A stretch of 64,000 bases of DNA from assembly GCF_003815975.1 (NCBI RefSeq), contig NZ_CP033932.1, forward strand, positions 3,267,501 through 3,331,500. Reading direction: 5' to 3'. Position 1 is the first letter of the stretch, and the number at the start of each line of letters is the position of its first letter. The DNA is from Chryseobacterium bernardetii (GTDB taxonomy: Bacteria; Bacteroidota; Bacteroidia; Flavobacteriales; Weeksellaceae). The translations under genes and the position numbers were made by a program. Positions 33,960 to 61,528 of this stretch are shown piece by piece. The notes under the pieces were generated by a model that did no database searches, was not told the DNA's origin, and saw only the letters and a list, made by a program, of their open reading frames with translations.

Positions 33960-34002
33960 AAGTGTATTATTTACATTTATTTAAAATAGAGCGTTATATT
34001 TG
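33960..34002 (+). promoter_or_regulatory. AraR-like operator plus promoter for GH3 (-GH51)
   Basis: The operator AAGTGTATTATTTACATTT (33960-33978) is an AAGTGT-N7-ACATTT inverted repeat. Sixteen bases later comes a TATATTTG box (33995-34002) fitting the Bacteroidetes TAnnTTTG -7 consensus. The right half-site overlaps the -33 region, as expected for a repressor. The same cassette precedes araB. Confidence 0.65.
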
Positions 34003-34261
34003 TTTTTTAGTCATTGCTGCTCAATGATGCCGGAAATTTGTATAAAATAAGAATGAAAACATAATTATCCGCGAAAATCTAAAATCAGTGGTTTGAAAAT
34101 GATTAATCACAAAATCAACAGCATTTTCCGGACTTTACCGACCCCTAATTCTTATAAAGAAATATGCGCAGTCATCTGTGAAAATCCGTGAAATCAGTGG
34201 TTAGAAAATCATTAATTACAGAATCCACAAAGTCTTAGTACTTTATTGAAACCATATACCT

Positions 34262-36895
34262 ATGAAAAGAATTGTATCAATCCTATGTGCAACCCTGGCA
34301 ACCCCTTTATTTTTTGCCCAGAGCCATTATAAATATCCATTCAGAAACCCGGACCTTTCGGTTAATGAAAGAATTGAGAACCTTCTTTCTTTACTGACAA
34401 CAGAAGAAAAGATAGGAATGATGATGGATAACTCCAAGGCAGTTCCCCGTTTGGAAATTCCAGCCTACGGATGGTGGAATGAAGCACTTCACGGGGTGGC
34501 ACGAGCAGGTACAGCTACTGTTTTTCCCCAGGCAATCGGGATGGCAGCAACATGGGATGTTCCGGAACATTTTAGAACTTTTGAAATGATCTCTGATGAA
34601 GCACGGGCAAAATACAACAGATCTTTTGATGAGGCCCAAAAAACAGGACGGTACGAAGGATTAACCTTCTGGACCCCTAATATCAATATTTTCCGTGACC
34701 CAAGATGGGGAAGAGGCCAGGAAACCTATGGTGAAGACCCTTATCTGACCTCTGTTCTGGGCGTTGCAGCAGTAAAAGGTTTACAGGGAAACGACCCGAA
34801 ATATTTTAAAACCCATGCCTGTGCCAAACATTTTGCGGTACACAGCGGACCGGAATGGAACCGTCATTCCTATAACGCAGAAATTTCTAAAAGAGATCTG
34901 TATGAGACGTATCTTCCCGCTTTCAAAGCATTGGTTCAGGAAGGAAATGTAAGAGAAGTAATGTGCGCCTACAATGCTTTTGACGGGCAGCCATGTTGTG
35001 CAAACAATACCTTACTTACTGAAATCCTCCGTGGAAAATGGAAGTATGACGGAATGGTGGTCTCAGACTGCTGGGCACTGGCCGATTTCTTTCAGAAAAA
35101 ATACCACGGCACCCATCCTGACGAAAAAACAACCGCAGCAGATGCCCTGAAACATTCTACCGATCTGGAATGCGGAGATACCTATAACAATCTGAATAAA
35201 TCTCTGGCAAGCGGACTGATTACCGAAAAAGATATCGATGCATCAATGCGCAGAATCCTGAAAGGCTGGTTTGAGCTGGGAATGCTTGATCCGAAATCTT
35301 CCGTTCACTGGAATACCATTCCGTATTCTGTAGTCGATTCTGAAGAACATAAAAAGCAGGCACTGAAAATGGCACAAAAATCAATCGTGCTGATGAAAAA
35401 CGAAAAGAATATTCTGCCTCTCAGCAGGAGTATTAAAAAAATTGCCGTTGTAGGTCCGAATGCTGATGACGGACTGATGCAGCTGGGAAACTATAACGGA
35501 ACTCCTTCTTCCATTGTAACGATTTTAGACGGAATCAAAACCAAATTCCCGAATGCTGAAATTATCTACGAAAAAGGAAGTGAAGTAACAGATCCTTCGT
35601 CCAGAATGTCACTCTATCAGAATTTCATCAGTCAGAAAAACGGCGCGAAAGGAATGAAAGTAGAGTTCTTCAATAATAATGAATTCAAGGGGCAGCCGGC
35701 CAATACTTCCGTAAATTCAACGGCCATCAGCTACAACAGCTTTGGAGGAACCCAGCTTGCTCCCAATGTAGGAAGAGAAAATACCTCAGCGATCATTTCA
35801 GGGATTTTTAAAAGTACCTATACAGGGGAGGTTGTGTTTTCTGCTTCCACTTCTGATATCTATACACTTTTCGTGAACGGAAAAGAAATCGCAACAAGAA
35901 AAGGACCTGATGCAAGACATCCTTCAGAGTTTCCTGTAAAAATGGAAAAAGGAAAAGAATACCAGATAGAACTGCGTCATACACAAAAAGGAAAATATGT
36001 AAGCATCAGCTTTGAAGTCTACAGAAAAGACCCTGTTAATTTTGCTTCGGTGAGGGAAAAGGTGAAAAATGCAGACGTCATTGTCTTTGCAGGCGGACTT
36101 TCTCCAAGTCTGGAAGGTGAAGAGATGATGGTGAATGCAGAAGGCTTCAAAGGTGGTGACAAAACTTCGATTGCCCTTCCTAAAGTACAGCGGGACCTGT
36201 TGGCGGAGCTTAGAAAAACCGGCAAACCTGTTGTTTTTGTTCTTTGTACCGGAAGTGCTCTGGGATTGGAACAGGATGAGAAAAATTATGATGCCCTGTT
36301 GAACGCCTGGTATGGCGGACAATCAGGAGGAACTGCAGTGGCAGATGTTTTGGCAGGAGATTATAACCCTTCCGGAAAATTACCCATTACCTTTTACAAA
36401 AACCTTGAGCAGCTGGACAACGCTCTTTCAAAGACAAGTAAACACGAAGGATTTGAAAATTATGATATGCAGGGGAGAACGTACCGTTATATGACGGAAA
36501 AGCCTCTTTATCCATTCGGGCATGGACTGAGCTATTCCAAATTTGTTTACGGAGATTCAAAACTGAGCAAAAATACGATCAATACCAGCGAAAATGTGAC
36601 GATCACCATTCCGGTAACCAATGTTTCAGAAAGGGATGGCGAAGAAGTCGTTCAGGTCTACATCAAAAGAAATAATGATGTCCAGGCACCGGTAAAAACG
36701 TTAAGGGCTTTTGAAAGAACTCCGATTAAATCCAAAGAAACAAAAAATATTCAACTGATCCTCTCCAAAAACTCATTTGCGTTCTACGATGAAAAAGCAG
36801 ATGATCTGGTTGCAAAACCCGGCGATTATACCATTTTTTATGGCGGAACTTCTGATGATACGGGGTTAAAAAGTATTCCATTAACAGTAAAATAA
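34262..36895 (+). CDS. GH3 beta-xylosidase with inserted PA14 domain
   Basis: The 877-residue secreted protein (signal peptide to LFFAQ) has the plant/fungal-xylosidase-like GH3 pattern: PRLEIPAYGWWNEALHGVAR, FWTPNINIFRDPRWGRGQETYGEDPYL and KHFAVHSGPEWNRH. The nucleophile is Asp269 in GMVVSDCWALADF. A PA14 carbohydrate-binding domain (about 464-590) interrupts the C-terminal alpha/beta sandwich, and an Fn3-like domain ends the protein. GH3 members of this type hydrolyse xylo-oligosaccharides and sometimes arabinosides. It is preceded by an arabinose-type operator and probably co-transcribed with the GH51 gene 52 bp downstream. Confidence 0.93.
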   Translation: MKRIVSILCATLATPLFFAQSHYKYPFRNPDLSVNERIENLLSLLTTEEKIGMMMDNSKAVPRLEIPAYGWWNEALHGVARAGTATVFPQAIGMAATWDVPEHFRTFEMISDEARAKYNRSFDEAQKTGRYEGLTFWTPNINIFRDPRWGRGQETYGEDPYLTSVLGVAAVKGLQGNDPKYFKTHACAKHFAVHSGPEWNRHSYNAEISKRDLYETYLPAFKALVQEGNVREVMCAYNAFDGQPCCANNTLLTEILRGKWKYDGMVVSDCWALADFFQKKYHGTHPDEKTTAADALKHSTDLECGDTYNNLNKSLASGLITEKDIDASMRRILKGWFELGMLDPKSSVHWNTIPYSVVDSEEHKKQALKMAQKSIVLMKNEKNILPLSRSIKKIAVVGPNADDGLMQLGNYNGTPSSIVTILDGIKTKFPNAEIIYEKGSEVTDPSSRMSLYQNFISQKNGAKGMKVEFFNNNEFKGQPANTSVNSTAISYNSFGGTQLAPNVGRENTSAIISGIFKSTYTGEVVFSASTSDIYTLFVNGKEIATRKGPDARHPSEFPVKMEKGKEYQIELRHTQKGKYVSISFEVYRKDPVNFASVREKVKNADVIVFAGGLSPSLEGEEMMVNAEGFKGGDKTSIALPKVQRDLLAELRKTGKPVVFVLCTGSALGLEQDEKNYDALLNAWYGGQSGGTAVADVLAGDYNPSGKLPITFYKNLEQLDNALSKTSKHEGFENYDMQGRTYRYMTEKPLYPFGHGLSYSKFVYGDSKLSKNTINTSENVTITIPVTNVSERDGEEVVQVYIKRNNDVQAPVKTLRAFERTPIKSKETKNIQLILSKNSFAFYDEKADDLVAKPGDYTIFYGGTSDDTGLKSIPLTVK

Positions 36896-36947
36896 AAATT
36901 GATTCAGGATAAATTGAGACATGCTTTAGTTTTCAAAATAACGATCT

Positions 36948-38936
36948 ATGACAACCAAAAATAAAATATTTTCCATCGCGATTTCCCTCAGTGCTGCTTT
37001 TTTTTCGGCTCAGAATAATACGGTCCGTACCTTTAACCTGGATCTGAAAGAAACCTCTACACCTATTAAAATACAGCCCACCATGTACGGGATTTTTTTT
37101 GAAGACATCAATTTTGCAGCAGATGGCGGATTGTATGCTGAACTGATTAAAAACCGCAGTTTTGAATTTGACGAACCATTTACAGGATGGAAACAGCAAA
37201 ACACAAAAACACTTTCTCCTAACCTGGATTCCGGGTTTCTGACCATTTATTCTGACCCTGCCAAAACCAATAAAAATTACGCAAGAATTACCGTTCTGAA
37301 CGATAAAAATTATATTCTTGAGAATGAAGGATTCAGGGGAATAGGCCTTCATCAGGGAGAACAATATGATTTCAGTTTTGATCTCGAGAATGTTTCAGGA
37401 AATATTGCTGCGGTAAATGCAAGTCTTGTTGATGAAAATGGGAAGGAAATTTCTTCAGTTTCCACACTTATAAAAAGAAACGGATGGCAGAAGTATACAG
37501 CAGTTTTCAAAGCACCGAAAACTGTAGAAAAAGCAAAACTGCGAATTACATTTACCGGAAACGGCATTGTGAATATGGATATGATCTCACTTTTCCCACA
37601 AGACACCTGGAAAGGCAGAAAAGGAGGTTTGCGAAAAGACCTAGTTCAGAAATTATATGATCTGCAGCCCGGATTTTTGAGATTTCCGGGAGGTTGTATC
37701 GTAGAAGGAAGAACCTTGGCAGAACGCTATCAGTGGAAAAAAACAATAGGAAATATAGCAGACCGTGAATACCTTATCAATAAATGGAGTACAGGATTTC
37801 CGCACAGGCTTACACCGGATTACGGACAGTCTTTCGGGCTGGGATTTTATGAATATTTCCAGCTTTCCGAAGACCTGGGTGCAGAACCTGTTCCTATTCT
37901 GAGCTGCGGAATGGCATGCCAGTTCAATACCGCAGAACTGGTGAAAATGGAAGACCTTGATCCCTACGTTCAGGATGCCCTTGACCTGATTGAATTTGCT
38001 AACGGAGATTCCGGAACAAAAAGGGGAAGAATCCGTACTGAAATGGGACATCCAAAGCCTTTTAATCTAAAATTTATCGGAGTTGGAAATGAGCAGTGGG
38101 GAGCAGATTATATCGAACGCTATAAAGTATTTGAAAAAGCCATTCATGCAAAATATCCTGACGTTAAGATCATCTCCGGAAGCGGACCGTCACCTGACGG
38201 CGAATTTTTCGAGTATGGATGGAAAGAATTGAAGCAGCTCAATGCACAGATTGTAGATGAACATTATTACAACTCTCCTGAATGGTTCATGAAAAATGCC
38301 GGAAGGTATGACGAATATGACCGTTCCGGACCAAAAGTTTTTGCCGGAGAATATGCAGCCCAATCTGTAGGTGTGCTAAAACCTGATAATAAAAACAACT
38401 GGCTGACGGCCCTTTCAGAAGCCGCTTTTATGACCGGTCTTGAAAGAAATGCAGATGTGGTTTATATGACTTCCTACGCACCGCTTTTTGCCCATGCTGA
38501 TGGCTGGCAGTGGACGCCTGACCTTATCTGGTTCAATAATCTGAAATCTTATGCAACCCCGAATTATTATGTTCAGAAATTATTCTCCAACAATAAAGGA
38601 ACGGATGTACTGAAAATAGAGAGAAACGGAAAAGCGGTATCCGGGCAGGAAAAATTATACGCTACAGCAGTTAAAGATGTCAAAACTCATGAGATTATTA
38701 TTAAAATAGTCAATACTGATACTCAGGCTAAAACAGTAAATATCAAACCAGGAACTCTGAAGACAGGTAAAAATATAACCAAAATCCTTCTGTCTGCACC
38801 ACAACTTTCCAGTGAAAATAATTTCGATGCTGAACCCATAAAACCTAAAGAAGAGATTTTTGAAGCCAAAAATGGTGAAATTTCAACGAAAATTCCTGCC
38901 AATTCTTTAGTTGTTTTAAAGCTAAAAACAGATTAA
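36948..38936 (+). CDS. GH51 alpha-L-arabinofuranosidase
   Basis: The 662-residue secreted enzyme (signal peptide to FFSAQ) has the GH51 opening MYGIFFEDINFAADGGLYAELIKNRSFE. An inserted beta-sandwich (about 75-205, CBM4-like) follows, then the catalytic barrel: acid/base Glu382 in GVGNEQWGADY and nucleophile Glu468 in VFAGEYAAQ. The C-terminal beta domain ends SLVVLKLKTD. It removes terminal L-arabinofuranose from arabinoxylan or arabinan fragments. The gene follows GH3 closely and lies just upstream of the arabinose catabolic operon that would use its product. Confidence 0.94.
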   Translation: MTTKNKIFSIAISLSAAFFSAQNNTVRTFNLDLKETSTPIKIQPTMYGIFFEDINFAADGGLYAELIKNRSFEFDEPFTGWKQQNTKTLSPNLDSGFLTIYSDPAKTNKNYARITVLNDKNYILENEGFRGIGLHQGEQYDFSFDLENVSGNIAAVNASLVDENGKEISSVSTLIKRNGWQKYTAVFKAPKTVEKAKLRITFTGNGIVNMDMISLFPQDTWKGRKGGLRKDLVQKLYDLQPGFLRFPGGCIVEGRTLAERYQWKKTIGNIADREYLINKWSTGFPHRLTPDYGQSFGLGFYEYFQLSEDLGAEPVPILSCGMACQFNTAELVKMEDLDPYVQDALDLIEFANGDSGTKRGRIRTEMGHPKPFNLKFIGVGNEQWGADYIERYKVFEKAIHAKYPDVKIISGSGPSPDGEFFEYGWKELKQLNAQIVDEHYYNSPEWFMKNAGRYDEYDRSGPKVFAGEYAAQSVGVLKPDNKNNWLTALSEAAFMTGLERNADVVYMTSYAPLFAHADGWQWTPDLIWFNNLKSYATPNYYVQKLFSNNKGTDVLKIERNGKAVSGQEKLYATAVKDVKTHEIIIKIVNTDTQAKTVNIKPGTLKTGKNITKILLSAPQLSSENNFDAEPIKPKEEIFEAKNGEISTKIPANSLVVLKLKTD

Positions 38937-38966: not shown

Positions 38967-39009
38967 AAGTGTGTTTTTTACATTTATTTAAAATAGAATC
39001 TTATATTTG
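38967..39009 (+). promoter_or_regulatory. AraR-like operator plus promoter for araBDA operon
   Basis: The operator AAGTGTGTTTTTTACATTT (38967-38985) is followed after exactly 16 nt by TATATTTG (39002-39009). The cassette is nearly identical to the one before GH3, including ATTTAAAATAGA in the spacer. The araB start is 56 bp downstream of the -7 box, giving a leader of about 50 nt. Confidence 0.7.
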
Positions 39010-39064: not shown

Positions 39065-40765
39065 ATGAAAAAATATGTTATCGGGCTGGACTACGGTACA
39101 GATTCCGTACGGGCCGTCCTTATTGACACTGAAAACGGTTCTGAAATAACTTCTTCAGTCAGCTACTACCAGAGATGGAAGGAAGGTAAATTTTGTAATC
39201 CCTCAACCAACAGTTTCAGACAGCATCCTTCAGATCATATTGAAGGTCTGGAGAAAACCATTTCAGAAGTTGTAAGAGAAAGTGGGATACCAGCAGAGCA
39301 GATCGTTAGTATCTGCATTGATACTACAGGCTCTTCACCGTTACCAGTAACCAATGATGGAACAGCCTTGGCACTGGTTCCGGGATTTGAAGAAAACCCC
39401 AATGCCATGATGGTTTTATGGAAAGACCATACCGCCATTCGTGAAGCCGAAGAAATCAATACCCTTGCAAGAACCTGGGGTGGTGAAGATTATACAAAAT
39501 ATGAAGGTGGTATTTATTCTTCAGAATGGTTCTGGGCCAAAATACTGCACATCAGCAGAGCCGATGCAGAAGTAAAAAATGCTGCTTATAGCTGGATGGA
39601 ACACTGTGATTATCTGACTTTCCTTTTATCAGATCATAAAGACCTGGCAACCTTTAAAAGAAGCCGTTGCGCTGCCGGACACAAAGCCATGTGGCATGAG
39701 TCATGGGGCGGTTTGCCTTCCGAAGAATTCCTCAACAGGCTAGATCCTTCTCTGGGAACGCTCAGAGGAAGATTATACAGGGAAACATATACTTCAGATG
39801 AAGTTGCCGGCTACCTGAATGAAGTATGGGCCGCAAAAACAGGTCTTACCACCCAAACCATTATTACTGTAGGAACTTTTGATGCCCATTCAGGAGCTGT
39901 AGGAGCCAGGGTGGAAGACAATACCCTGATCAGGATCATGGGAACTTCTACCTGCGATATTATGGTAGCCTCACAAGAAGCTATCGGGAATACAACGGTA
40001 AAAGGAATCTGCGGACAGGTTGATGGTTCCGTAATTCCCGGATTGATAGGACTTGAAGCAGGGCAGTCTGCCTTTGGAGATGTGCTGGCATGGTATAAAG
40101 ATATTCTGATGTGGCCGGTTCATCAGGTGATGATGCATTCCGAAAGTATTTCAGAGGAGCAGAAAATAAAGCTCGCTGAAGAGATGGAGGACGGACTTAT
40201 CAGAAAATTGACCCTTGAAGCAGAAAAAATTTCTCTTTCAGATACCGTTCCGGTTGCATTGGACTGGGTAAACGGAAGAAGAACACCGGATGCAGACCAG
40301 GAACTTAAGGCAGCCATCAGTCAGCTTTCTCTGGGAACAAAAGCTCCCCATATTTTCAAAGCTTTGGTGAATGCCATTTGTTTCGGAGCTAAAAAGATCG
40401 TAGACCGTTTTGAAGAGGAAGGTGTGAAAATCAATAAAGTGATCGGAATCGGGGGAGTCGCAAGGAAATCACCATTTATCATGCAGACCCTCGCTAATGT
40501 TCTGGATATGCCGATTGTTGTTGCCGCTTCAGACCAGACTCCTGCTTTGGGAGCTGCTGTTTATGCGGCCGTGTCAGCAGGAATTTATCCTACCGTTCAG
40601 GAAGCAAGCATGAAAATGGGCTCCGCATTTGAAGCGGAATACCAGCCGAAAGCGGAAGAAGTACAGCACTACAGAGAATTAATGCAGCAATACCAGAAGC
40701 TCGCTGATTTTGTAGAATACAATACCAAACTGAAAAACAACAGGAAAGAACTTCAGAACTCCTGA
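39065..40765 (+). CDS. araB: L-ribulokinase (FGGY family)
   Basis: The 566-residue cytosolic kinase phosphorylates L-ribulose to L-ribulose-5-phosphate. It has the FGGY phosphate-binding start GLDYGTDSVRAVLID, the CIDTTGSSPLPV and WKDHTA motifs typical of AraB, TVGTFDAHSGAVG, and IGIGGVARKSPFIMQTLAN near the C-terminus. It is the first gene of araB-araD-araA and directly follows an AraR-like operator-promoter cassette. Confidence 0.96.
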   Translation: MKKYVIGLDYGTDSVRAVLIDTENGSEITSSVSYYQRWKEGKFCNPSTNSFRQHPSDHIEGLEKTISEVVRESGIPAEQIVSICIDTTGSSPLPVTNDGTALALVPGFEENPNAMMVLWKDHTAIREAEEINTLARTWGGEDYTKYEGGIYSSEWFWAKILHISRADAEVKNAAYSWMEHCDYLTFLLSDHKDLATFKRSRCAAGHKAMWHESWGGLPSEEFLNRLDPSLGTLRGRLYRETYTSDEVAGYLNEVWAAKTGLTTQTIITVGTFDAHSGAVGARVEDNTLIRIMGTSTCDIMVASQEAIGNTTVKGICGQVDGSVIPGLIGLEAGQSAFGDVLAWYKDILMWPVHQVMMHSESISEEQKIKLAEEMEDGLIRKLTLEAEKISLSDTVPVALDWVNGRRTPDADQELKAAISQLSLGTKAPHIFKALVNAICFGAKKIVDRFEEEGVKINKVIGIGGVARKSPFIMQTLANVLDMPIVVAASDQTPALGAAVYAAVSAGIYPTVQEASMKMGSAFEAEYQPKAEEVQHYRELMQQYQKLADFVEYNTKLKNNRKELQNS

Positions 40766-40798
40766 TTTTCCATTTTAACCTTTTGAATGATACTCAAA

Positions 40799-41509
40799 AT
40801 GAATACCTATAAAGAACTCCAAAGAGAATGTTATGAAGCGAATATGCAGCTGGATGCCCTGAAGCTGGTGGTCTATACTTTCGGAAATGTAAGTGCTGTA
40901 GATCGTGATAAAGGCATTTTTGCCATTAAACCAAGCGGTGTTCCCTATGACATTTTAAAGCCGGAAGATATGGTGATTCTGGATTTTGACGCCAATGTCA
41001 TTGAAGGCAGACTCAGACCTTCTTCCGATACCAAGACCCATGCTTATCTGTATAAAAACTGGGAAAACATCGGTGGAATTTCCCACACTCATGCGATCTA
41101 TTCCGTGGCGTGGGCACAGGCACAAATGGATATTCCTGTTTTCGGGACCACCCATGCAGACCATTTAACAACAGATATTCCCTGCGCTCCACCTATGCGG
41201 GATGAACTGATTGAAGGAAACTATGAATACAATACAGGAATACAGATTCTGGAATGCTTTAAAGAAAAACAGCTCTCTCCGGAAGAAGTAGAAATGGTTC
41301 TGATCGGGAATCACGGTCCGTTTACCTGGGGTAAAAATGCAGAGAAGGCTGTTTACAACAGCAAAGTGCTGGAAACCATTGCGGAAATGGCTTATCTCAC
41401 CAGACAGATCAATCCTGATGCGGAACGTCTGAAAGACTCACTTATCAAAAAGCATTATGAACGTAAGCATGGCAAGAACGCCTACTACGGACAGGAATTT
41501 AAACACTAA
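40799..41509 (+). CDS. araD: L-ribulose-5-phosphate 4-epimerase
   Basis: The 236-residue class II aldolase-like enzyme converts L-ribulose-5-phosphate to D-xylulose-5-phosphate. It shows GNVSAVDRDKG, the zinc-binding HTHAIYSVAWAQA region, GTTHADHL and IGNHGPFTWGKNA. An in-frame ATG at 40787 would add four residues; 40799 is preferred because the enzyme normally starts just before the YKELQ helix. It lies between araB (33 bp) and araA (39 bp). Confidence 0.95.
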   Translation: MNTYKELQRECYEANMQLDALKLVVYTFGNVSAVDRDKGIFAIKPSGVPYDILKPEDMVILDFDANVIEGRLRPSSDTKTHAYLYKNWENIGGISHTHAIYSVAWAQAQMDIPVFGTTHADHLTTDIPCAPPMRDELIEGNYEYNTGIQILECFKEKQLSPEEVEMVLIGNHGPFTWGKNAEKAVYNSKVLETIAEMAYLTRQINPDAERLKDSLIKKHYERKHGKNAYYGQEFKH

Positions 41510-41548
41510 ACACTTCAACATAAACAACTATTAACGATCAACAAAATT

Positions 41549-43045
41549 ATGTTAACACCTCTCAATACCAAAGAAGTCTGGTTCATCACAGGAAGTCAGC
41601 ATTTATACGGACCTGAAACACTTGCCCAGGTGGCAGATCACTCAAAGAAAATTGTGGCAGAACTTGAAAAATCTTCTTTCATTCCGGTAAAAATCATTGT
41701 AAAGCCAACGGTAAAAACTACCGAAGAAATATTTGAAACCATTGCAGCAGCCAATCATGCAGAAAACTGCATAGGAGTAATTACTTGGATGCATACCTTT
41801 TCACCCGCCAAAATGTGGATCAGAGGACTAAAAATTTTACAGAAACCTCTTCTGCATCTGCATACCCAATTCAACAGAGATATTCCGTGGTCTACCATGG
41901 ATATGGATTTTATGAATCTTAACCAGGCAGCTCACGGAGACCGTGAATTCGGTTTCATGGTAAGCAGACTCCGAAAAAACAGAAAAGTAGTGGTAGGACA
42001 CTGGTCAGAAGAAAGAGTTCAGAAGCAGATTGGTGACTGGAGCCGTGTTGCTGCAGGTTGGGACGACTGGCAGGGAGCTAAATTTGCTCGTTTCGGAGAT
42101 AATATGAGATTTGTAGCCGTTACGGATGGAGATAAGGTGGAAGCTGAAACCCAGTTCGGCTTTTCAGTCAATACCTGGGGAATCGGTGATCTTGTAGGCG
42201 TTATCAATTCTGTAAGCGAAGGAGAAATAAAAAGCCTCATGGAAGAATATGAATCTTCTTATCACATGGCAGCTTCCCTTTTGGAAGGAGGGGCCAACAG
42301 AAGTTCGCTGCACACCGCCGCAAAAATTGAATTAGGACTTGAAAAATTTTTAAAAGATGGAGGATTTAAAGGATTTTCCGATACCTTTGAAGACCTTCAC
42401 GGGCTGGAGCAGCTGCCGGGAATTGCCGTACAGCGACTGATGCAGAAAGGATACGGATTTGCAGGCGAAGGAGATTGGAAAACAGCAGCACTCGTACGTG
42501 CCATGAAAACAATGGGGCAGGGCCTTGAAGGAGGAAATGCCTTTATGGAAGATTATACCTATCATTTAGATCCTTCCAATCCTTCCATTTTGGGATCCCA
42601 CATGCTGGAAGTAGACCCGGTTCTGGCAGCCAGAAAACCTTCATGTGAGATTCATCCGCTGGGAATCGGAGGAAAAGCAGATCCGGTGCGTCTTGTTTTT
42701 AACTCCAGAGGAAATATTGATTCTCTGAATGCTGCCCTAATGGACTTTGGAAACCATTTCAGACTGCTGATCAACAAAACCAGAGCATTGGAAATTACAG
42801 AAGAGCTGCCAAAACTTCCGGTAGCAAGAGTTTTATGGAAACCTCTTCCTGATTTATATACGGCCGCAGAAGCCTGGATACTGGCAGGAGGGGCACACCA
42901 CACATGTTACAGTGAAAATATTTCAGCAGAGCAGCTGGAAGATTTTGCTGAGATAGCAGGAATTGAATCATTAGTCATTGATGAAGATACCAGAATGCGT
43001 GACTTTAAAAATACACTTCGTTGGAATGAAATGTATTATCGTTAA
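41549..43045 (+). CDS. araA: L-arabinose isomerase
   Basis: The 498-residue protein is full-length AraA, converting L-arabinose to L-ribulose in the cytosol. Family motifs include [17 protein letters not shown] at the start, [48 protein letters not shown] and the metal-site residues around [11 protein letters not shown] and HMLEVDP. It completes araB-araD-araA; the next gene, a mutarotase, starts 28 bp downstream. Confidence 0.97.
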
Positions 43046-43072
43046 TTAATTTTAAAAAATATGTAAATAATT

Positions 43073-44230: not shown

Positions 44231-44233
44231 ACT

Positions 44234-49718: not shown

Positions 49719-49737
49719 AAATGTTGAATTAACATTT
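49719..49737. promoter_or_regulatory. AraR-like operator just upstream of GH127/146
   Basis: AAATGTTGAATTAACATTT is a perfect 6-bp inverted repeat with a 7-nt spacer, four bases before the ATG. If used, it would act downstream of the promoter, as a roadblock or leader site. Confidence 0.5.
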
Positions 49738-52117: not shown

Positions 52118-52149
52118 AGCTGAACCAATTTTAAAAACAGATTTTTCCC

Positions 52150-54054
52150 ATGAAAAACAGAATCCTATACGTATTATTTTTTCTTGCAGCCATTTGCAGT
52201 TTTGATGCAAAAGTAAGGCTGCCTGCTTTGGTTTCAGATGGAATGATTCTTCAGAGAAATCAGGATCTGAAGATCTGGGGATATGCAGATGCAGGAGAAA
52301 AAATTACGGTTAAATTTATCAATAAAGCGTTTCATACAACAGCGGACCAAAATGGAAACTGGTCTCTTATGCTTCCAAAGTTTAATGCCGGAGGTCCATA
52401 TACTATGATGATTAATGAGATCACCCTTAAAGATATTCTTATTGGTGATGTGTGGGTAGCTTCAGGACAATCCAATATGGAACTTCCGATGCGGAGGCTC
52501 ACACCTCTTTATGAAAATGAAATTAAAAACGCGAATAATCAGAATATAAGATTCTTCACGGTTCCGCAGAAATACAATTTTAAAGCTCCGCAAAATGATC
52601 TTGACGGAGGAAAATGGGAAAGTACCAATCCTCAGACTATTCTTGATTTTTCAGGAGTCGCTTATTTCTTTGCCAAAGAGCTGAGTGAAAAAAATAAAGT
52701 GCCTGTAGGAATCATTCATACCAGTCTGGGAGGCTCTCCGGTTCAGGCCTGGATGGATGAAAAATCCCTGAAAAAATACCCGGAATATCTTGCTGAAGCA
52801 GAAAAATGGAAAAATGATGGCCTGATACAATCTACCGAATCCCAGGAAAGATCATTAAGCAAAGCATGGTATGCGGAGCTGGATCAGAGTGATATTGGGT
52901 TCAATCAGCACTGGGAAAAAGATAACGCCAATGATTCCGGATGGAAGACCATGATGGTTCCGGGATCATGGGAAGATCAGGAAGGTTCGTTTGACGGTTC
53001 GGTATGGTTCCGTAAAGAAATTATCCTGCCAAAAGGAGTGGATCAGAAAACAGCATTTCTCAATCTGGGAAGAATAAAAGATGCTGATATTACCTACATC
53101 AATGGAGTAAAAGTAGGAAATGTAACCTACGAATATCCGCCGAGATGGTATGATATTCCGAAGGGTGTTTTAAAAGAAGGAAAGAATATCATTACGGTAA
53201 GGGTCATCAACGGCAGCGGAAAAGGACAGTTTATTGCTGATAAACCGTATTATCTGGAAATCGACGGACAAAAAACAGACCTTAAAGGCGAGTGGAAATA
53301 TAAGATAGGAGCAAAAATGGAAAAAATGGCTCCCGGACAAACATTTATCCGCTGGAAACCGGTAGGACTTTACAATGCGATGATTAACCCGCTGATCAAT
53401 TATAAAGTCAAAGGATTTATCTGGTACCAGGGTGAAAGCAATACAGGAAAACCAAAAGAATATGGAGATTTATTGTCAACAATGATCTCCGACTGGCGCT
53501 CAAAATGGAATAAGAATGATCTGCCGTTCTTCATTGTACAGCTGGCCAATTTTATGGAGAAAAAGGATGAGCCACTGGAAAGCAACTGGGCTGAGCTGAG
53601 AGAACAGCAAAGGCAGGTCTCTCTTAATGTTCCTTATTCAGGACTTGCGGTAACGATTGATGTGGGAGAATGGAATGACATCCATCCGCTCAATAAAAAA
53701 GCAGTAGGTGACAGACTTGCTTTACAGGCCCTGAAAATCGGGGAAGGCAAAAAAATCATAGCTGACGGACCCGTTTATCAGTCGATGAAAACAGAAGGAA
53801 ATACCATTATCATATCCTTTAAACCCGGTACAGATGATCTGGTACAGGGAAGCCTTACAGGTTTTGCCATACAGCAGAAAGACGGCAGCTATCAGTGGGC
53901 AAAAGCAGAAGCGAAAGGAAATAAAGTGATAGTATGGAACGATCAGGTCACAAACCCTGTCAATGTACGCTACGACTGGGCAGACAACCCGGACGGCAAT
54001 CTTAAAAATAAAAGCGGACTTCCTGCTTCATCTTTTACAACAGAAAAAAATTAA
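52150..54054 (+). CDS. Sialate-O-acetylesterase-like SGNH esterase (CE20-like) with inserted jelly-roll
   Basis: The 634-residue protein (signal peptide to SFDAK) opens with the beta domain VRLPALVSDGMILQRNQDLKIWGYA. The SGNH nucleophile Ser108 is in VWVASGQSNMELPM. A GH2-type sugar-binding jelly-roll is inserted (about 260-385, WKTMMVPGSWEDQ...VWFRKEI). Then come FIWYQGESNTGKP and the catalytic His region DVGEWNDIHPLNKKAVGDR. Close relatives with this inserted domain deacetylate xylo- or xyloglucan oligosaccharides; a xylan acetylesterase role is inferred from the GPH-GH10-GH43-GH67 genes that follow. Confidence 0.88.
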   Translation: MKNRILYVLFFLAAICSFDAKVRLPALVSDGMILQRNQDLKIWGYADAGEKITVKFINKAFHTTADQNGNWSLMLPKFNAGGPYTMMINEITLKDILIGDVWVASGQSNMELPMRRLTPLYENEIKNANNQNIRFFTVPQKYNFKAPQNDLDGGKWESTNPQTILDFSGVAYFFAKELSEKNKVPVGIIHTSLGGSPVQAWMDEKSLKKYPEYLAEAEKWKNDGLIQSTESQERSLSKAWYAELDQSDIGFNQHWEKDNANDSGWKTMMVPGSWEDQEGSFDGSVWFRKEIILPKGVDQKTAFLNLGRIKDADITYINGVKVGNVTYEYPPRWYDIPKGVLKEGKNIITVRVINGSGKGQFIADKPYYLEIDGQKTDLKGEWKYKIGAKMEKMAPGQTFIRWKPVGLYNAMINPLINYKVKGFIWYQGESNTGKPKEYGDLLSTMISDWRSKWNKNDLPFFIVQLANFMEKKDEPLESNWAELREQQRQVSLNVPYSGLAVTIDVGEWNDIHPLNKKAVGDRLALQALKIGEGKKIIADGPVYQSMKTEGNTIIISFKPGTDDLVQGSLTGFAIQQKDGSYQWAKAEAKGNKVIVWNDQVTNPVNVRYDWADNPDGNLKNKSGLPASSFTTEKN

Positions 54055-54082
54055 TTTAACATAGAAAACCTTATTAAAATCA

Positions 54083-55528
54083 ATGGATAATCAGCCACAA
54101 AAAATATCGGTAGTAGAAAAAGTAGGGTATAGCTTGGGAGATTTGGCGGCCAACCTTGTTTTTCAGACCTTAGTGACCTACCTGACCTATTTTTATACGG
54201 ATATTTACGGACTCAAAGCAGAAGATGCCTCTGTCATCACCCTTACCGTAGGTTTAATTGCCGGGTTTGGTTTTAATCCGCTTATCGGAGCGCTGGCAGA
54301 CCGTACAAGTTCACGATGGGGAAAATTCCGTCCATGGATTTTATTTACCGCCGTACCACTTGGTATTGCAGCACTTTTAGCCTTCAGCACACCTCACTTT
54401 TCTTACCAGGGTAAAATGATTTATGCTGCAGTTACCTATTCATTATTATTGCTATTATATGCTTCCAATAATTTACCATATGCTGCATTGAGCGGTGTTA
54501 TCACGGGAGATATGGGGGAAAGAAACAGTATTTCTTCGTACCGTTTTGTTGCCGTGATGTTTGCACAGTTTTTTGTACAGGTATTCATGCTTCCTATCAT
54601 TTTATATGTAGGACACGGAGACAAAGCACAGGGAATCGAGACCGTTATGACATGGCTGGCTGTGATCGGATCCGTAATGTTACTGATTACCTTTTTTACC
54701 ACCAAAGAAAGAATCATTCCCAAGCCGGAGCAGAAATCAAGTCTGAAAGAAGATTTAAAAGATTTATTCCAGAACAGGCCATGGATCATTATGCTTACCG
54801 TGACAGCATTTATATTTATCACGCTGGCCATGAAAGGAGGATCTTATGTATATTATTTTAACAACTATGTGGATGAGAATGCCCTGAAGAACTTTATTTC
54901 ACCCATTACAGCATTCTTTAATTCTGCCGGTATGAATTTCTTCGGGGAAGATCCAAAGTCTGCAGGATTCGGATTGTTTAATGCAGGAGGAATTGTAATG
55001 ATGATTGTAGGAATTACTTTCTCTAAAAAACTCGCAGACCGGTTTGGAAAAAGGGATACTTTTATCGCCTCATTATTTATTTCTACATTGTTTATCCTGT
55101 TCTTTATATTTTATCCTCCGAAAGCAGTGGGAATTATGTTCCTGTCACAGATTTTACACGGATTCTTTTACGGGATCAGCACTCCGCTTTTGTGGGCTAT
55201 GATTGCTGATGTGGCCGATTATTCGGAATGGAAGAACAACCGCAGGGCAACGGCTATTATTTTCTCTGCCATGATGGTAGGATTGAAAGTGGGTCTCAGC
55301 ATCGGAAGCTCTCTGGTAGCTTTGATCATTGGAAAATACGGATACATTTCAGTACACGGGAGCGAACAGGTTATTCAGCCTGAAACAGTGGCGGCAGGCG
55401 CCAAAATGCTTGTGAGTATTTTCCCGTCCATACCGTTTTTCATTGCGTGCGGGCTGCTTTTATTCTACAAAATCAATAAAGAAATGGAAGTTCAGATTGA
55501 AAAAGATCTGGCTGAAAGAAGAAAATAA
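54083..55528 (+). CDS. GPH-family sugar:cation symporter, probable xylo-oligosaccharide transporter
   Basis: The 481-residue membrane protein has about 12 hydrophobic segments and GPH motifs: KVGYSLGDLAANLVFQTLVTYLTYFYTDIYGL, NPLIGALADRTSSRWGKFRPWIL and ADVADYSEWKNNRRATAI. It lies directly before a GH10 gene (start 10 bp after its stop), then GH43 and GH67. An equivalent transporter-GH10-GH43 order is known from Prevotella xyn clusters, supporting xylobiose/xylo-oligosaccharide import. There is no signal peptide. Confidence 0.92.
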   Translation: MDNQPQKISVVEKVGYSLGDLAANLVFQTLVTYLTYFYTDIYGLKAEDASVITLTVGLIAGFGFNPLIGALADRTSSRWGKFRPWILFTAVPLGIAALLAFSTPHFSYQGKMIYAAVTYSLLLLLYASNNLPYAALSGVITGDMGERNSISSYRFVAVMFAQFFVQVFMLPIILYVGHGDKAQGIETVMTWLAVIGSVMLLITFFTTKERIIPKPEQKSSLKEDLKDLFQNRPWIIMLTVTAFIFITLAMKGGSYVYYFNNYVDENALKNFISPITAFFNSAGMNFFGEDPKSAGFGLFNAGGIVMMIVGITFSKKLADRFGKRDTFIASLFISTLFILFFIFYPPKAVGIMFLSQILHGFFYGISTPLLWAMIADVADYSEWKNNRRATAIIFSAMMVGLKVGLSIGSSLVALIIGKYGYISVHGSEQVIQPETVAAGAKMLVSIFPSIPFFIACGLLLFYKINKEMEVQIEKDLAERRK

Positions 55529-55538
55529 AACAATTACT

Positions 55539-56648
55539 ATGAAACGTATTTTAATTGGTTTGGCGGCTCTTACCGCTTCCGGGCTGTCGGCACAGAAGTC
55601 TGATGGTACTTTAAAAAAAGCATTTCAAGATAAATTTTACATAGGAACTGCCATGAGCCTTCCCCAGATTGACGGGACAGATCAGAAAGCCGCAGCGATT
55701 ATCAAAAAACAATTCAGCTCTGTTGTTGCTGAAAACTGTATGAAATCTATGTTCCTGCAGCCTCAGGAAGGAAAGTTTTTCTTTGATGACGCCGATAAAT
55801 TTGTTGATTTCGGGATGAAAAACAATATGTTCATTATCGGACATACGCTAATCTGGCATTCCCAGCTTCCAAAATGGTTTTTTACAGATAAAAATGGAAA
55901 AGATGTTTCTCCGGAAGTATTGAAACAGCGCATGAAAAACCACATTACAACCGTAGTTTCCCGCTACAAAGGAAAAGTAAAAGGATGGGATGTGGTCAAT
56001 GAGGCCATTCTTGAAGACGGAACTTACAGAAAAAGTAAATTTTACGAAATCCTGGGTGAAGATTTTATTCCTTTGGCATTTCAGTATGCACAGGAAGCCG
56101 ATCCCAATGCAGAATTATATTACAACGATTATAATGAATGGTATCCTGAAAAGGTAAAAACAGTCATTGCAATGGTTGAAAAACTTAAATCAAGAAGAAT
56201 CCGTATTGATGGAGTAGGAATGCAGGCCCATGTCGGGATGGATAACCCTTCTATCGATGAATATGAGAAAGCGATTCTGGCGTATTCCAATGCCGGAGTT
56301 AAAGTTAATATTACGGAGCTGGAAATTAGCGCACTGCCTTCTCCATGGGGCAGTTCTGCCAATGTTTCAGATACCGTTGCCTATCAGAAAGAAGTGAATC
56401 CTTACACCAAAGGACTTCCCAAAGAAGTAGAAATGAAATGGGAAAACCGTTACCTCGATTTCTTTAGCTTGTTTTTAAAACATAAAGATAAAATAAGAAG
56501 GGTGACCTTATGGGGAGTTACTGATAAGCAGTCCTGGAAAAATGATTTTCCGGTAAAAGGAAGAACAGATTACCCGTTACTATTTGACAGGAAAGATCAG
56601 GAGAAACCTGTAGTACAAAAAATAATAAAATTGGCAGAGAAAAATTAA
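55539..56648 (+). CDS. GH10 endo-beta-1,4-xylanase
   Basis: The 369-residue secreted single-domain xylanase (signal peptide to GLSAQ) starts at the ATG at 55539; the frame is open further upstream but within the symporter gene. The GH10 barrel shows FSSVVAENCMKSMFLQP, HTLIWHSQLPKWFF, acid/base Glu155 in WDVVNEAIL, YNDYN, GVGMQAHV, nucleophile Glu260 in NITELEIS and RVTLWGVTDKQSW. There is no T9SS tail and no binding module, so it is probably periplasmic, acting on imported oligosaccharides. Confidence 0.96.
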   Translation: MKRILIGLAALTASGLSAQKSDGTLKKAFQDKFYIGTAMSLPQIDGTDQKAAAIIKKQFSSVVAENCMKSMFLQPQEGKFFFDDADKFVDFGMKNNMFIIGHTLIWHSQLPKWFFTDKNGKDVSPEVLKQRMKNHITTVVSRYKGKVKGWDVVNEAILEDGTYRKSKFYEILGEDFIPLAFQYAQEADPNAELYYNDYNEWYPEKVKTVIAMVEKLKSRRIRIDGVGMQAHVGMDNPSIDEYEKAILAYSNAGVKVNITELEISALPSPWGSSANVSDTVAYQKEVNPYTKGLPKEVEMKWENRYLDFFSLFLKHKDKIRRVTLWGVTDKQSWKNDFPVKGRTDYPLLFDRKDQEKPVVQKIIKLAEKN

Positions 56649-56669
56649 AATCAATAGAATTTTTACTTA

Positions 56670-57644
56670 ATGAAAAAATCAAAATATTTATTTCCGGAAG
56701 ATTATATGGCAGACCCTTCCGTTCACGTTTTTGAAGATAAAATCTATATCTACCCTTCTCACGACCGCGAAAGCGGAATTGAAGAAAACGATAACGGAGA
56801 TCATTTTGACATGAATGATTACCATGTTTTCTCAATGGATGATGTAGACAGCGGAGAAATTAAAGACCATGGCGTAGTCCTTTCGGTAAAAGATATTCCA
56901 TGGGCGGGAAGACAGCTTTGGGATTGCGATGTTGCCTTCAAAGACGGTAAATATTATATGTACTTTCCTCTTAAGGATCAGAATGATATCTTCAGAATCG
57001 GTGTTGCTGTGAGTGACAAACCTTACGGGCCTTTCATACCTGAAAAACATCCGATGATGGGAAGCTATAGCATCGATCCCTGCATTTTTGAAGATAAAGG
57101 AAAATATTATATGTATTTCGGAGGAATCTGGGGCGGACAATTGCAGCGCTACAGAGATAATAAAGCACTTGAATCTGCTGTAATTCCCGAAAATAATGAA
57201 CCTGCAATCCATTCAAAGGTAGCTTTGTTAAGCGATGATATGCTTCAATTTGCGGAAGCTCCTAAAGACGTTGTCATCATTGATGAAAACGGAAAACCAT
57301 TGCTTCATGGTGATAAACACCGTTTTTTTGAAGCGTCATGGATGCATCAGTACAACGGTACATATTATTTCTCTTATTCAACAGGAGACACTCACCTGAT
57401 TTGCTATGCAACCGGGGATAATCCTTACGGACCGTTTACTTTTCAGGGTGAAATTCTTACTCCGGTAGTAGGTTGGACAACCCATCACAGCATCGTTGAG
57501 TTTAAAGGAAAATGGTACCTGTTTTTCCATGATTCTGTTCCGAGTGGCGGTAAAACATGGCTGAGAAGTATGAAAGTAATTGAGCTGGAATACGATCAGG
57601 AAGGTAAAATCAAGACGATTGAAGGTCTGGAAGACCAGTCATAG
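56670..57644 (+). CDS. GH43 (subfamily 1-like) beta-xylosidase, cytosolic
   Basis: The 324-residue protein lacks a signal peptide (MKKSKYLFPEDYMADPSVHVFEDKIY) and consists of the GH43 propeller alone. The general-base Asp is in YMADPSV, the middle Asp in SIDPCIFEDKGKYYMYFG and the acid Glu in RFFEASWMHQYNGTYYFSYS. Subfamily 1 members cleave short xylo-oligosaccharides to xylose. Its cytosolic location fits the symporter encoded two genes upstream. It starts 22 bp after GH10 and is followed 28 bp later by GH67. Confidence 0.92.
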   Translation: MKKSKYLFPEDYMADPSVHVFEDKIYIYPSHDRESGIEENDNGDHFDMNDYHVFSMDDVDSGEIKDHGVVLSVKDIPWAGRQLWDCDVAFKDGKYYMYFPLKDQNDIFRIGVAVSDKPYGPFIPEKHPMMGSYSIDPCIFEDKGKYYMYFGGIWGGQLQRYRDNKALESAVIPENNEPAIHSKVALLSDDMLQFAEAPKDVVIIDENGKPLLHGDKHRFFEASWMHQYNGTYYFSYSTGDTHLICYATGDNPYGPFTFQGEILTPVVGWTTHHSIVEFKGKWYLFFHDSVPSGGKTWLRSMKVIELEYDQEGKIKTIEGLEDQS

Positions 57645-57671
57645 TCATCTTTAATAATTTAAAATTTTTCA

Positions 57672-59705
57672 ATGCGATATCTGAGACTCAACATTCTATT
57701 TTTTCTGATATTTCCGTTACTGGTTTCTGCGGAGGACGGAAGTCAGCTTTGGCTTCGGTTTCCTGCAAAAAACGGAATATCGGCAGATAAAATTATTTCC
57801 AAAGGGAACAGTCCCACGCTGAACATTGCCAGAAAAGAGCTGAGCGGCCACTGGCAGGGACAGGTGGTGGAACTTCGTACAGAAAACAAAGAGAAAAACC
57901 TGAAAGACGGCTACAAAATTGTTTCCACGCCTGAAAAAATTGTTATTTCTGCAGGAAAAGAAATAGGATTGTTGTACGGGGTCTATCATATCTTACGATT
58001 GCAGCAGACAAAGGCAGATCTGTCTCATTTAAATACTGTTGAAAAACCATCATACGATGTAAGAGTTCTGGATCATTGGGATAATCTCGACGGAAGTATT
58101 GAAAGAGGATATGCCGGAAGATCACTTTGGAAATGGGAAGATCTGCCAGGTAAAATTTCTCCGCGCTATGAAGAATATGCAAGAGCCAATGCTTCTGTAG
58201 GAATCAATTCTGTTGTTTTGAATAATGTGAATGCATCTCCCAATATGCTTAGGGAAGACTATCTTAAAAAAGTAAGGGTTCTGGCCGATATTTTCAGGCC
58301 TTATGGCATCAAGGTATATCTTTCCGTGAATTTTTCTTCACCTAAAGTGCTGGGCGGATTACAAAATTCAGATCCATTGAATAAAGACGTACAAAAGTGG
58401 TGGAAAGATAAAGCAGCTGAAATTTACAGATTAATTCCTGATTTCGGCGGGTTTTTGGTGAAAGCCAATTCCGAAGGGCAGCCGGGTCCTCAGGATTACG
58501 GAAGAACCCATGCAGACGGAGCCAATATGATGGCCGATGCCTTGAAACCTTACAACGGGATCGTGATGTGGAGAGCCTTTGTCTACAGTCCGAGCAAAGA
58601 CGACAGAGCCAAACAGGCTTATCTTGAGTTTGTTCCTTTGGACGGTAAATTCAGGGATAATGTGATTATTCAGATCAAAAATGGTCCGGTTGATTTCCAG
58701 CCGCGTGAAGCATTTAATCCTCTTTTCGGTGCCTTAAGAAAGACTTCCGAAATGGTAGAATTTCAAATCACCCAGGAATATCTGGGCTTTTCAAACCATC
58801 TCGTTTTCCTGGCTCCTTTATTCAAGGAAACACTGGATAGCGACACCTATTCTGACGGCCAGGGTTCTACGATTGCTAAAATAACAGACGGGACTTTAAG
58901 ACCCGCAAAAATTTCAGCCATTTCAGCCGTTGCCAATATCGGGGAAGATACCAACTGGACCGGGCATCATTTTGCTCAAGCCAACTGGTATGCATTCGGG
59001 AGATTAGCATGGAATCATCAGCTGAGTTCAGAGCAGATTGCCGATGAATGGATTAAAATGACCTTCACAGATGACCAGAACTTCCTGAATCCGGTAAAAG
59101 AAATCATGCTTTCATCCAGAGAAACTGCTGTGGATTATATGATGCCGTTAGGGTTACACCATATTTTTGCGGGAGGACATCACTATGGACCTGAACCATG
59201 GGGTGACTATAAAGGCGGAAGACCGGACTGGTCACCTGTCTACTACCATCAGGCTGATGCCCAGGGATTGGGTTTTAACAGGACAAAAACAGGAAGTAAT
59301 GCTGTTTCACAGTATTTTCCACCATTGAATGAAAGGTACGGGAATATCTCAACCTGCCCGGAAAATCTTATTCTGTGGTTTCATCATGTTCCTTGGGATT
59401 ATACGATGAAAGATGGAAAATCGCTGTGGGATGAACTGTGCTATACGTATGATTCCGGGGTGAAAAAGGTAAGGGATTATCAGAAAACCTGGGATAGAAT
59501 GGAACCTTATATAGATAAACAAAGGTTTGCTGATGTTCAGTCAAAGCTTAAAATTCAATCTAAGGATGCGGTATGGTGGAAAGATGCCTGCCTGCTGTAT
59601 TTCCAGACTTTTTCCAAAAAACCGATTCCTTATGACATTGAACGGCCTATTCACGAACTGGAAGATCTGAAAAAAATTAAATTGAATATGGGTCACCATA
59701 ATTAA
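57672..59705 (+). CDS. GH67 alpha-glucuronidase
   Basis: The 677-residue protein has a signal peptide (to LLVSAEDG), so it acts outside the cytosol. The GH67 pattern includes YGVYHILRLQQT, RVLDHWDNLDGSIERGYAG, general-acid Glu268 in VKANSEGQPGPQDYGR, GPVDFQPREAFNPLFG and EFQITQEYLGFSNH, which hold the other catalytic acids. GH67 removes (Me)GlcA only from the non-reducing terminal xylose of oligosaccharides, complementing GH115, which works on polymer. It is the last gene of the 49742-59705 run. Confidence 0.96.
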   Translation: MRYLRLNILFFLIFPLLVSAEDGSQLWLRFPAKNGISADKIISKGNSPTLNIARKELSGHWQGQVVELRTENKEKNLKDGYKIVSTPEKIVISAGKEIGLLYGVYHILRLQQTKADLSHLNTVEKPSYDVRVLDHWDNLDGSIERGYAGRSLWKWEDLPGKISPRYEEYARANASVGINSVVLNNVNASPNMLREDYLKKVRVLADIFRPYGIKVYLSVNFSSPKVLGGLQNSDPLNKDVQKWWKDKAAEIYRLIPDFGGFLVKANSEGQPGPQDYGRTHADGANMMADALKPYNGIVMWRAFVYSPSKDDRAKQAYLEFVPLDGKFRDNVIIQIKNGPVDFQPREAFNPLFGALRKTSEMVEFQITQEYLGFSNHLVFLAPLFKETLDSDTYSDGQGSTIAKITDGTLRPAKISAISAVANIGEDTNWTGHHFAQANWYAFGRLAWNHQLSSEQIADEWIKMTFTDDQNFLNPVKEIMLSSRETAVDYMMPLGLHHIFAGGHHYGPEPWGDYKGGRPDWSPVYYHQADAQGLGFNRTKTGSNAVSQYFPPLNERYGNISTCPENLILWFHHVPWDYTMKDGKSLWDELCYTYDSGVKKVRDYQKTWDRMEPYIDKQRFADVQSKLKIQSKDAVWWKDACLLYFQTFSKKPIPYDIERPIHELEDLKKIKLNMGHHN

Positions 59706-59709
59706 AAAA

Positions 59710-60514: not shown

Positions 60515-60522
60515 TAACTTTG
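60515..60522 (+). promoter_or_regulatory. Candidate -7 box for the AraC-type gene
   Basis: TAACTTTG matches TAnnTTTG and lies 60 bp before the start codon. A second match, TAATTTTG, occurs at 60549-60556. Neither has a clear -33 partner, so the choice is open. Confidence 0.35.
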
Positions 60523-60582
60523 TTTAATGATATTAATGTATTATTTGTTAATTTTGCATATGAAATTATTTGTATTTGGCCT

Positions 60583-61455
60583 ATGAAACATGTAAATCCT
60601 TCTTTTGAGGCCGTAAGACCTACTATAGGAAGCAGTTTTACCAGTCTTAAATTTCTGACTAATGAGAATATAAAATCTCATGTCTGGCATTACCATCCAG
60701 AGATTGAGCTGATCTTTGTCTGCAAAGGTTCCGGGAAAAGACAGATCGGAAGCAGCATTACCTATTTTTCAGAGGGAGATCTTGTGCTGATAGGAAGCAA
60801 TCTTCCGCATTGTGGACTGACCAATGAAAGTACGCATAATGAGTATGAAATGGTGATCCAGTTTAAGCCTGATTTTTTAGGAGAACCTATCTGGGATATA
60901 CCGGAAATGCAAAGGATTTCTGCTCTGCTTGAAAAATCAAAGGCAGGAATCGTCTTCGGGGAAGAGGTGAAGAGAAAAATCGGAAAAGAGATTACTGAGA
61001 TGCATGAAGCTTCCTCACTGGACAAGCTGTGCAGATTTCTGAAAATATTGGATGAGCTGTCTGTTACACAGGATTACAGGATTTTAAATGCAGGAAAATA
61101 TTACCTTCAGACACAGGTTGAAGACAATGAAAGGATCAATCTTATATTCAATTATGTTAAAGATCACTTCAAAGAAGCCATAACCCTCGAAGAAATGGCT
61201 GATCTTGCCAATATGAAAGTACCGTCTTTCTGCCGTTACTTTAAAAAAATTACCAATAAAACTTTTACGCAGTTTGTTAATGAATACAGAATTACCCATG
61301 CTCTCAAACTTCTGGCAGAGCAGCCTTTGAGTATCACGGAAGTCTGCTTTGAATCGGGGTTCAATAACTTCAGCTATTTTAACAGGACTTTCAAAGAATA
61401 CATCCAAAAAAGTCCTTCACAATACCGTAAAGAATTTAATTATTTCATGGAGTAG
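60583..61455 (+). CDS. AraC-family transcriptional regulator with N-terminal cupin
   Basis: From the ATG at 60583 the product has 290 residues; the upstream extension to 60520 has no family similarity. Residues ~30-110 form a cupin ligand-binding barrel (HYHPEIELIFVCKGSGKRQI, YFSEGDLVLIGSNLPHCG). The last ~100 residues are the double helix-turn-helix AraC domain (ITLEEMADLANMKVPSFCRYFKKITNKTFTQFVNEYRI and ITEVCFESGFNNFSYFNRTFKEY). It is likely a sugar-responsive activator. Its target is unknown; galK follows 167 bp downstream but has its own operator-like site. Confidence 0.92.
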   Translation: MKHVNPSFEAVRPTIGSSFTSLKFLTNENIKSHVWHYHPEIELIFVCKGSGKRQIGSSITYFSEGDLVLIGSNLPHCGLTNESTHNEYEMVIQFKPDFLGEPIWDIPEMQRISALLEKSKAGIVFGEEVKRKIGKEITEMHEASSLDKLCRFLKILDELSVTQDYRILNAGKYYLQTQVEDNERINLIFNYVKDHFKEAITLEEMADLANMKVPSFCRYFKKITNKTFTQFVNEYRITHALKLLAEQPLSITEVCFESGFNNFSYFNRTFKEYIQKSPSQYRKEFNYFME

Positions 61456-61503
61456 TTGATAAGCTGATCTAAAATTTCTGTGAAGCATTATGATGTATTG
61501 AAA

Positions 61504-61528
61504 TATAAGTGTATATTTAACACTTATA
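61504..61528. promoter_or_regulatory. AraR-like operator upstream of galK (best palindrome)
   Basis: The core AAGTGTATATTTAACACTT (61507-61525) extends to perfect 9-bp arms, TATAAGTGT and ACACTTATA, with a 7-nt spacer. A near-consensus -7 box TAAATTTC lies at 61549-61556. It sits 95 bp before the galK start. Confidence 0.7.

Follow-up and report, generated by a model that had tools for sequence, protein, structure and literature searches.

Five 19-bp inverted repeats stand in front of sugar genes within one stretch of the Chryseobacterium bernardetii genome and raise the question of which protein binds them and how far its control reaches. The stretch, here called the window, comprises 64,000 nucleotides of contig NZ_CP033932.1 (positions 3,267,501 to 3,331,500); positions are given from its first letter, and seven-digit positions are those of the contig. 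A sequence-only reading had proposed that the repeats, AAGTGT-N7-ACACTT or close variants, mark the regulon of an AraR-like protein encoded at 48541 to 49227. Our analysis indicates that the five sites are most likely operators of this AraR-type protein, which would act as a repressor released from DNA by L-arabinose. Two observations are added to this picture, namely, a conserved xylR-linked site whose presence follows that of AraR, and an operator of pentose-phosphate genes that has come to precede galK.

Results

All five repeats were found between the larger reading frames at the positions originally proposed, with zero to two mismatches to AAGTGT-N7-ACACTT. They precede the GH3-GH51 genes (AAGTGTATTATTTACATTT, 33960 to 33978), araB (AAGTGTGTTTTTTACATTT, 38967 to 38985), araR itself (AAATGTGATTCATACACTT, 49278 to 49296), the GH127 gene (AAATGTTGAATTAACATTT, 49719 to 49737), and galK (AAGTGTATATTTAACACTT, 61507 to 61525). 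Allowing up to three mismatches yielded 31 matches in the window versus 29.9 expected from shuffled sequence, and genome-wide matching with one mismatch (111 matches versus 179 in the control) was dropped as background dominated. Because the loose pattern remains at chance level, weight was placed on the strict form AARTGT-N7-ACAYTT. The 5,318,634-base genome contains nine copies of it (4 in the reversed control), five of which lie inside the window (binomial P = 3 × 10−8). When spacers of 1 to 13 nucleotides were searched across the genome, 46 matches were obtained, nine each with spacers 7 and 10 (hand count); the window holds five of the nine spacer-7 matches and none of the 37 with other spacers. 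Abundance alone is thus unremarkable, spacer 10 being as frequent as spacer 7, and the clustering in the window is what distinguishes the repeat.

Outside the window, a conserved strict site at 3260292 lies 7.2 kb ahead of it, upstream of xylR-xylB-xylA, while those at 2621303 and 3156584 apparently fall within coding sequence, as read by eye. The site at 4355018, before a Crp-like gene, was rejected as a candidate, as the promoters of the three closest orthologues (89 to 88% identical) lack it. Between window positions 1 and 33,900, the sole spacer-7 match with an intact core (23859) lies within a gene. At the GH3, araB, araR, and xylR sites, AAGTGT is the half away from the gene and ACATTT the half facing it, and these operators are therefore asymmetric in one sense.

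A scan of genome contigs provided 79 related loci, with genes called by a simple purpose-made caller; many of these loci come from close relatives and hence are not independent. Exact spacer-7 sites occurred 127 times between genes and three times within genes, and the twelve other spacers together gave two exact sites between genes and none within. Promoters were counted per family over 350 bp before the genes in 75 of the 79 loci, leaving out L106, L107, L109, and L110, which represent other paralogues. In Weeksellaceae (38 loci), an exact site precedes araR in every locus, araB in 24 of 27 (the three loci without one break off too soon), and GH127 in 33 of 37 (hand count; the automatic figure of 34 includes the araR site of L039). 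In Flavobacteriaceae (11 loci), five araR promoters carry an exact site and five more the core, and nine of 10 araB promoters have a site. Both Cyclobacteriaceae loci have a site before araR and neither has one before araB or GH127, and in the 23 loci from Sphingobacteria, Chitinophagia, or unplaced organisms, all four araB promoters carry the core. The genus sample consisted of 59 genomes and 30 loci per gene. Here, the 1000 bp ahead of GH3 contain an exact site in 25 of 30 loci and those ahead of galK in 12 of 30, with the core and one outer mismatch in three more; other spacers were not found in these 1000-bp stretches before GH3 and galK. The galK-galT genes of Flavobacterium were considered as a further target and discarded, since the sites there precede a symporter gene and follow the 3′ end of araR rather than precede aldose epimerase-galK-galT. 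In four Flavobacterium-type loci (L073:11071, L074:10822, L075:10831, and L076:10868), a GntR-type gene converges on araR, and the exact site lies between the 3′ ends of the two.

The regulator gene (48541 to 49227, minus strand) encodes a protein of 228 amino acids with a Nudix-like domain and a winged helix of the NrtR/AraR type, and the domains NUDIX (PF00293), NrtR_WHD (PF21906), and AraR_C (PF19368) all scored above their cut-offs. Its closest solved relative is AraR of Bacteroides thetaiotaomicron (BtAraR, 5bs6; E value of 2.8 × 10−69, 236 bits), with which it shares nine of 10 residues of the L-arabinose pocket, V92 being replaced by I. The Nudix signature R-E-U-X-E-E-X-G-U (PMC4666351) is degraded in the alignment to R-V-L-H-T-L-T-G-L, with loss of its glutamates. 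Residues D178, K179, R180, and N181 of BtAraR are retained, and three of the six base contacts (K179, R180, N181, K184, K204, and R205) are identical. The genome encodes four further Nudix-winged-helix paralogues, none of which matches the D-K-R-N positions, and one weak match. The NCBIfam model for an ADP-ribose repressor gave 132.8 of 400 bits, far under its cut-off, and the gene adjoins ara genes and not xylose genes. The domain order, the degraded signature, and the arabinose pocket place the protein in the AraR branch of the NrtR family; together with the co-occurrence of sites and AraR described below, they support its proposed role as the AraR-type regulator that very probably binds the sites. 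Two further loci harbor other such genes, whose neighbors were named by eye: the one at L027:7524-8219 lies beside Sir2, ADP-ribosylglycohydrolase, macro-domain, and NADAR-like genes and perhaps encodes an NrtR of NAD or ADP-ribose metabolism, and the paralogue at L029:8213-9001 lies beside a SusC/SusD-like pair and is a candidate regulator of another sugar locus.

Could XylR, the paralogue encoded at 3260597, occupy the sites instead of AraR or alongside it, which would make the regulon xylose responsive? XylR is likewise a Nudix-winged-helix protein, and its own gene is preceded by a site. XylR is encoded in 37 of the 59 genus genomes and AraR in 29, all of them within those 37; the occurrence of XylR without AraR makes the binder testable by comparing genomes. 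Across the genomes compared (25 with and 5 without AraR, followed by 4 and 3 more), all 29 that encode AraR carry the exact site upstream of xylR, whereas none of the eight that have XylR without AraR does. The candidate XylR palindrome ATGATAA-N2-TTATCAT is exact in all 29 genomes of the former group, and three of the eight AraR-less genomes (G034, G054, and G003) keep it, which makes these three the cleanest cases. A spacer-2 control before xylR matched in six of 30. A tree covering 30 of these 37 genomes shows three changes of the xylR site, each coinciding with a change of AraR, and each of these changes includes one genome that retains the XylR-type box. Counted over whole genomes, there are 8.0 exact sites per genome with AraR (n = 29) and 2.6 without (n = 30), against 4.2 and 4.6 for the control, figures not corrected for relatedness. 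The D-K-R-N helix residues are, moreover, absent from XylR. Collectively, the xylR-bearing genomes of the genus point to AraR as the binder, and binding by XylR or by both paralogues appears highly improbable. Even less credit can be given to the view that the repeats are chance palindromes of an A+T-rich genome: the chance level of the loose pattern, the modest excess of nine exact sites over four in the reversed control, and a genome-wide frequency equaled by spacer 10 would fit it, yet it is contradicted by the clustering, the conservation, and the co-occurrence with AraR. As for the XylR-type box, 28 of 30 genus loci have it in exact form, 117 to 148 bp ahead of xylR, and no copy with fewer than three mismatches was found in the window. 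Its palindrome, ATGATAACCTTATCAT in L024 (11451 to 11466), is a candidate XylR operator.

The xylR site also bears on the reach of the regulon. The sequence-only reading had suggested that the xylan genes form two separately controlled halves, the left one lacking sites. The left half encodes SusD, UxuA, UxaC, a PfkB kinase, KDPG aldolase, GH95, several GH43 enzymes, GH97, and GH115 (susC was named by eye), and it continues a same-strand run begun outside the window by xylR, xylB, and a xylA-like gene, whose match lies below its Pfam cut-off. The run contains gaps of 87 to 128 bp at 3818, 12552, and 14246, and its transcription as one unit is a presumption. Since this half is headed by xylR with its conserved AraR-type site, and since the GH127 run on the other side includes GH10, GH43, and GH67, separate control of the halves is unsupported; of the original proposal, one AraR-type regulon governed by the 48541 to 49227 protein is retained.

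The site before galK, present and intergenic as proposed, was reinterpreted. Between it and galK lies the scar of a deleted transaldolase gene (61526 to 61622, plus strand), recognized by alignment to locus L114, which has the gene; in the window genome, the flanks of this second transaldolase copy are retained and the gene itself is gone. Among the 11 closest galK loci, seven have a transaldolase gene that begins about 20 bp after the operator and is followed by galK, as does L131 (Pfam was run on L114). G004, G052, and G028 have a transaldolase gene and two halves of a transketolase ahead of galK and galT (Pfam on G052 only). All 59 genus genomes encode a transaldolase, and a hand count gave a second copy in 21 of the 29 AraR-bearing genomes but in none of the 30 others. 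An exact site lies within 400 bp of 18 of the 20 second copies whose locus was in hand and of none of 10 first copies, and the 21st second copy (G004, L260) is likewise preceded by a site. In Wenyingzhuangia gilva, a member of another family, an exact site lies 115 bp before a transaldolase gene that adjoins araR. Judged from these loci, the galK site originally served as operator for a transaldolase-(transketolase)-galK-galT run and came to adjoin galK through deletion.

These two sites leave room for other roles. The galK operator might be a mere relic of the lost transaldolase gene that no longer controls galK-galT here, as the loci with the intervening gene and the AraC-type gene upstream of the operator would allow; its perfect palindrome, retained in this genome and in three close transaldolase-less genomes (L112, L113, and L115), speaks against this, and we regard it as rather unlikely. 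About equally doubtful is that AraR, acting from the distal xylR site, helps or tunes XylR by looping, competition, or activation instead of repressing. In favor of such a role, the site ends 251 bp upstream of the xylR −7 box with the XylR-type box in between, and G004 and G049 have retained it in a shifted position, 193 bp before the gene compared with approximately 287 bp elsewhere; BtAraR is, on the other hand, described as a repressor (PMC4666351). The possibility that a TAAGTGT half-site close to the XylR-type box provides a further AraR contact was rejected, as the half-site is kept in the AraR-less G034 and missing in several genomes with AraR. The AraC-type regulator gene (60520 to 61455) lies immediately upstream of the galK operator, and such a gene was also seen upstream, by eye, in L114, L116, and L131.

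The Bacteroidetes promoter consensus is TTTG/TAnnTTTG. With putative promoter boxes assigned by this consensus, the araB and GH3-GH51 operators both end 16 bp before TATATTTG (39002 to 39009 and 33995 to 34002, respectively), a distance that would place the right half over the usual −33 region. The GH127 operator directly follows a −7-like TATTTTAG (49711 to 49718), with the GH127 ATG four bases further on, and the galK operator encloses TATATTTA (61512 to 61519). The araR operator ends 26 bp before the TACCTTTG box (49244 to 49251, minus strand). These placements would suit a repressor that blocks RNA polymerase.

All genes behind the window operators other than araR lie on the plus strand. 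The GH3 and GH51-type arabinofuranosidase genes span 34262 to 38936, and araB, araD, araA, aldose epimerase, and sodium:solute symporter genes follow at 39065 to 45961 with intergenic gaps of 3 to 39 bp. The GH127, SASA esterase, MFS transporter, GH10, GH43, and GH67 genes are close-packed at 49742 to 59705, and galK and galT occupy 61623 to 63840. A GH5 gene with ricin-type lectin domains (46113 to 47846), found only in some related loci, lies between the symporter gene and araR. In the left half, a degenerate look-alike, AAGTGT-N7-ACAAAT (14319 to 14337, plus strand), precedes an esterase gene and is conserved, though not counted as an operator. The surrounding element (14296 to 14344) consists of a T-tract plus AATAAGTGT-N6-TACAAAT and reads as an AraR site whose right half is disrupted; it is entire in 23 of 27 genus loci, the compared stretch cutting or missing it in the other four, and all 27 genomes have AraR.

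Discussion

Taken together, the results point to a real regulon, of a type already described, in a lineage where no account of one was found: in the titles and abstracts of the open-licence literature, we met none outside Bacteroides and Prevotella. Several observations weigh against the assignment of the sites to AraR. The substitutions K184S, K204R, and R205K alter three contacts described as absolutely conserved (PMC4666351), and many half-sites read ATGT instead of GTGT. Spacer 10 equals spacer 7 in genome-wide frequency by hand count, and with one outer mismatch, spacer 7 gave 10 sites between genes in the related loci and spacer 5 gave 12, so that only the exact form is distinctive. In the loci from Sphingobacteria, Chitinophagia, and unplaced organisms, the core site was found in one of 23 araR promoters. 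Simple blocking does not fit the xylR site, given its distance from the promoter, and five of the eight AraR-less genomes lack the exact XylR-type box; their xylR region may have diverged wholesale, and the test is therefore weaker for them.

In the mechanism we propose, an AraR dimer would occupy AARTGT-N7-ACAYTT in the absence of L-arabinose and block RNA polymerase, over the −33 region at araB and GH3-GH51, at the transcription start of the GH127 run, and over the −7-like box at transaldolase/galK; at araR, the dimer would sit just upstream of the core promoter. L-Arabinose entering the Nudix-like pocket would shift the winged helices and release the DNA. The predicted outputs are the arabinofuranosidases, AraBDA, the symporter, and the GH127-GH10-GH43-GH67 run. 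The ancestral regulon would also have included two enzymes that consume the D-xylulose 5-phosphate produced by AraBDA, transaldolase and transketolase, and the sixth conserved site, before xylR, would put the xylose operon under AraR as well.

A bolder and more tentative extension, to which we give somewhat less than an even chance, makes AraR the master pentose gate of Chryseobacterium-type bacteria. L-Arabinose, a side chain of arabinoxylan, would then free the arabinose genes, the xylR-headed xylose, xylan, and uronate run, and the pentose-phosphate enzymes through which both pentoses are consumed. Stepwise loss of transketolase and transaldolase would have brought galK-galT under the control of arabinose while the operator stayed a perfect palindrome. 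If true, this would be rewiring by deletion. At this locus one can trace how other genes come under an operator once those originally behind it are deleted, and the locus suggests that one side-chain sugar may gate a larger arabinoxylan program. It would also extend to Flavobacteriia a structurally solved sugar regulator of gut Bacteroides and Prevotella, and its operators are open to direct testing.

Among known members of the NrtR family, the NAD-metabolism regulator of Shewanella (3gz5/3gz6) has, judged by sequence match, the same fold and the same order of domains; however, the match is weaker (84 versus 236 bits), and the window has no NAD genes. The Bacteroidetes XylR (BT0791; PMC3878776) is of the same Nudix plus winged-helix type, and its system has a counterpart in the orthologue-like xylR-xylB-xylA operon 7 kb before the window. 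Nevertheless, the window protein scores 236 bits with BtAraR and the XylR of its own genome only 117, the recognition helix differs, and the box probably differs too. The closest parallel is BtAraR (BT0354), the AraR of Bacteroides and Prevotella, which releases DNA upon binding L-arabinose and whose tested operators read GTGT-N7-ACAC (PMC4666351). Its domain plan, arabinose pocket, and operator type recur here, as does the linkage of its regulon to ara genes and GH51 arabinofuranosidases (PMC4666351). In contrast to BtAraR, the present system belongs to Flavobacteriia, has a single site at the ara operon where BtAraR has a tandem one, accepts A in place of the half-site's first G, and carries the K184S, K204R, and R205K exchanges (PMC4666351). 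The target list also looks broader than described, with sites before xylR and before transaldolase/transketolase-galK-galT; of these names, the main text of PMC4666351 contains only XylR, and that as a protein.

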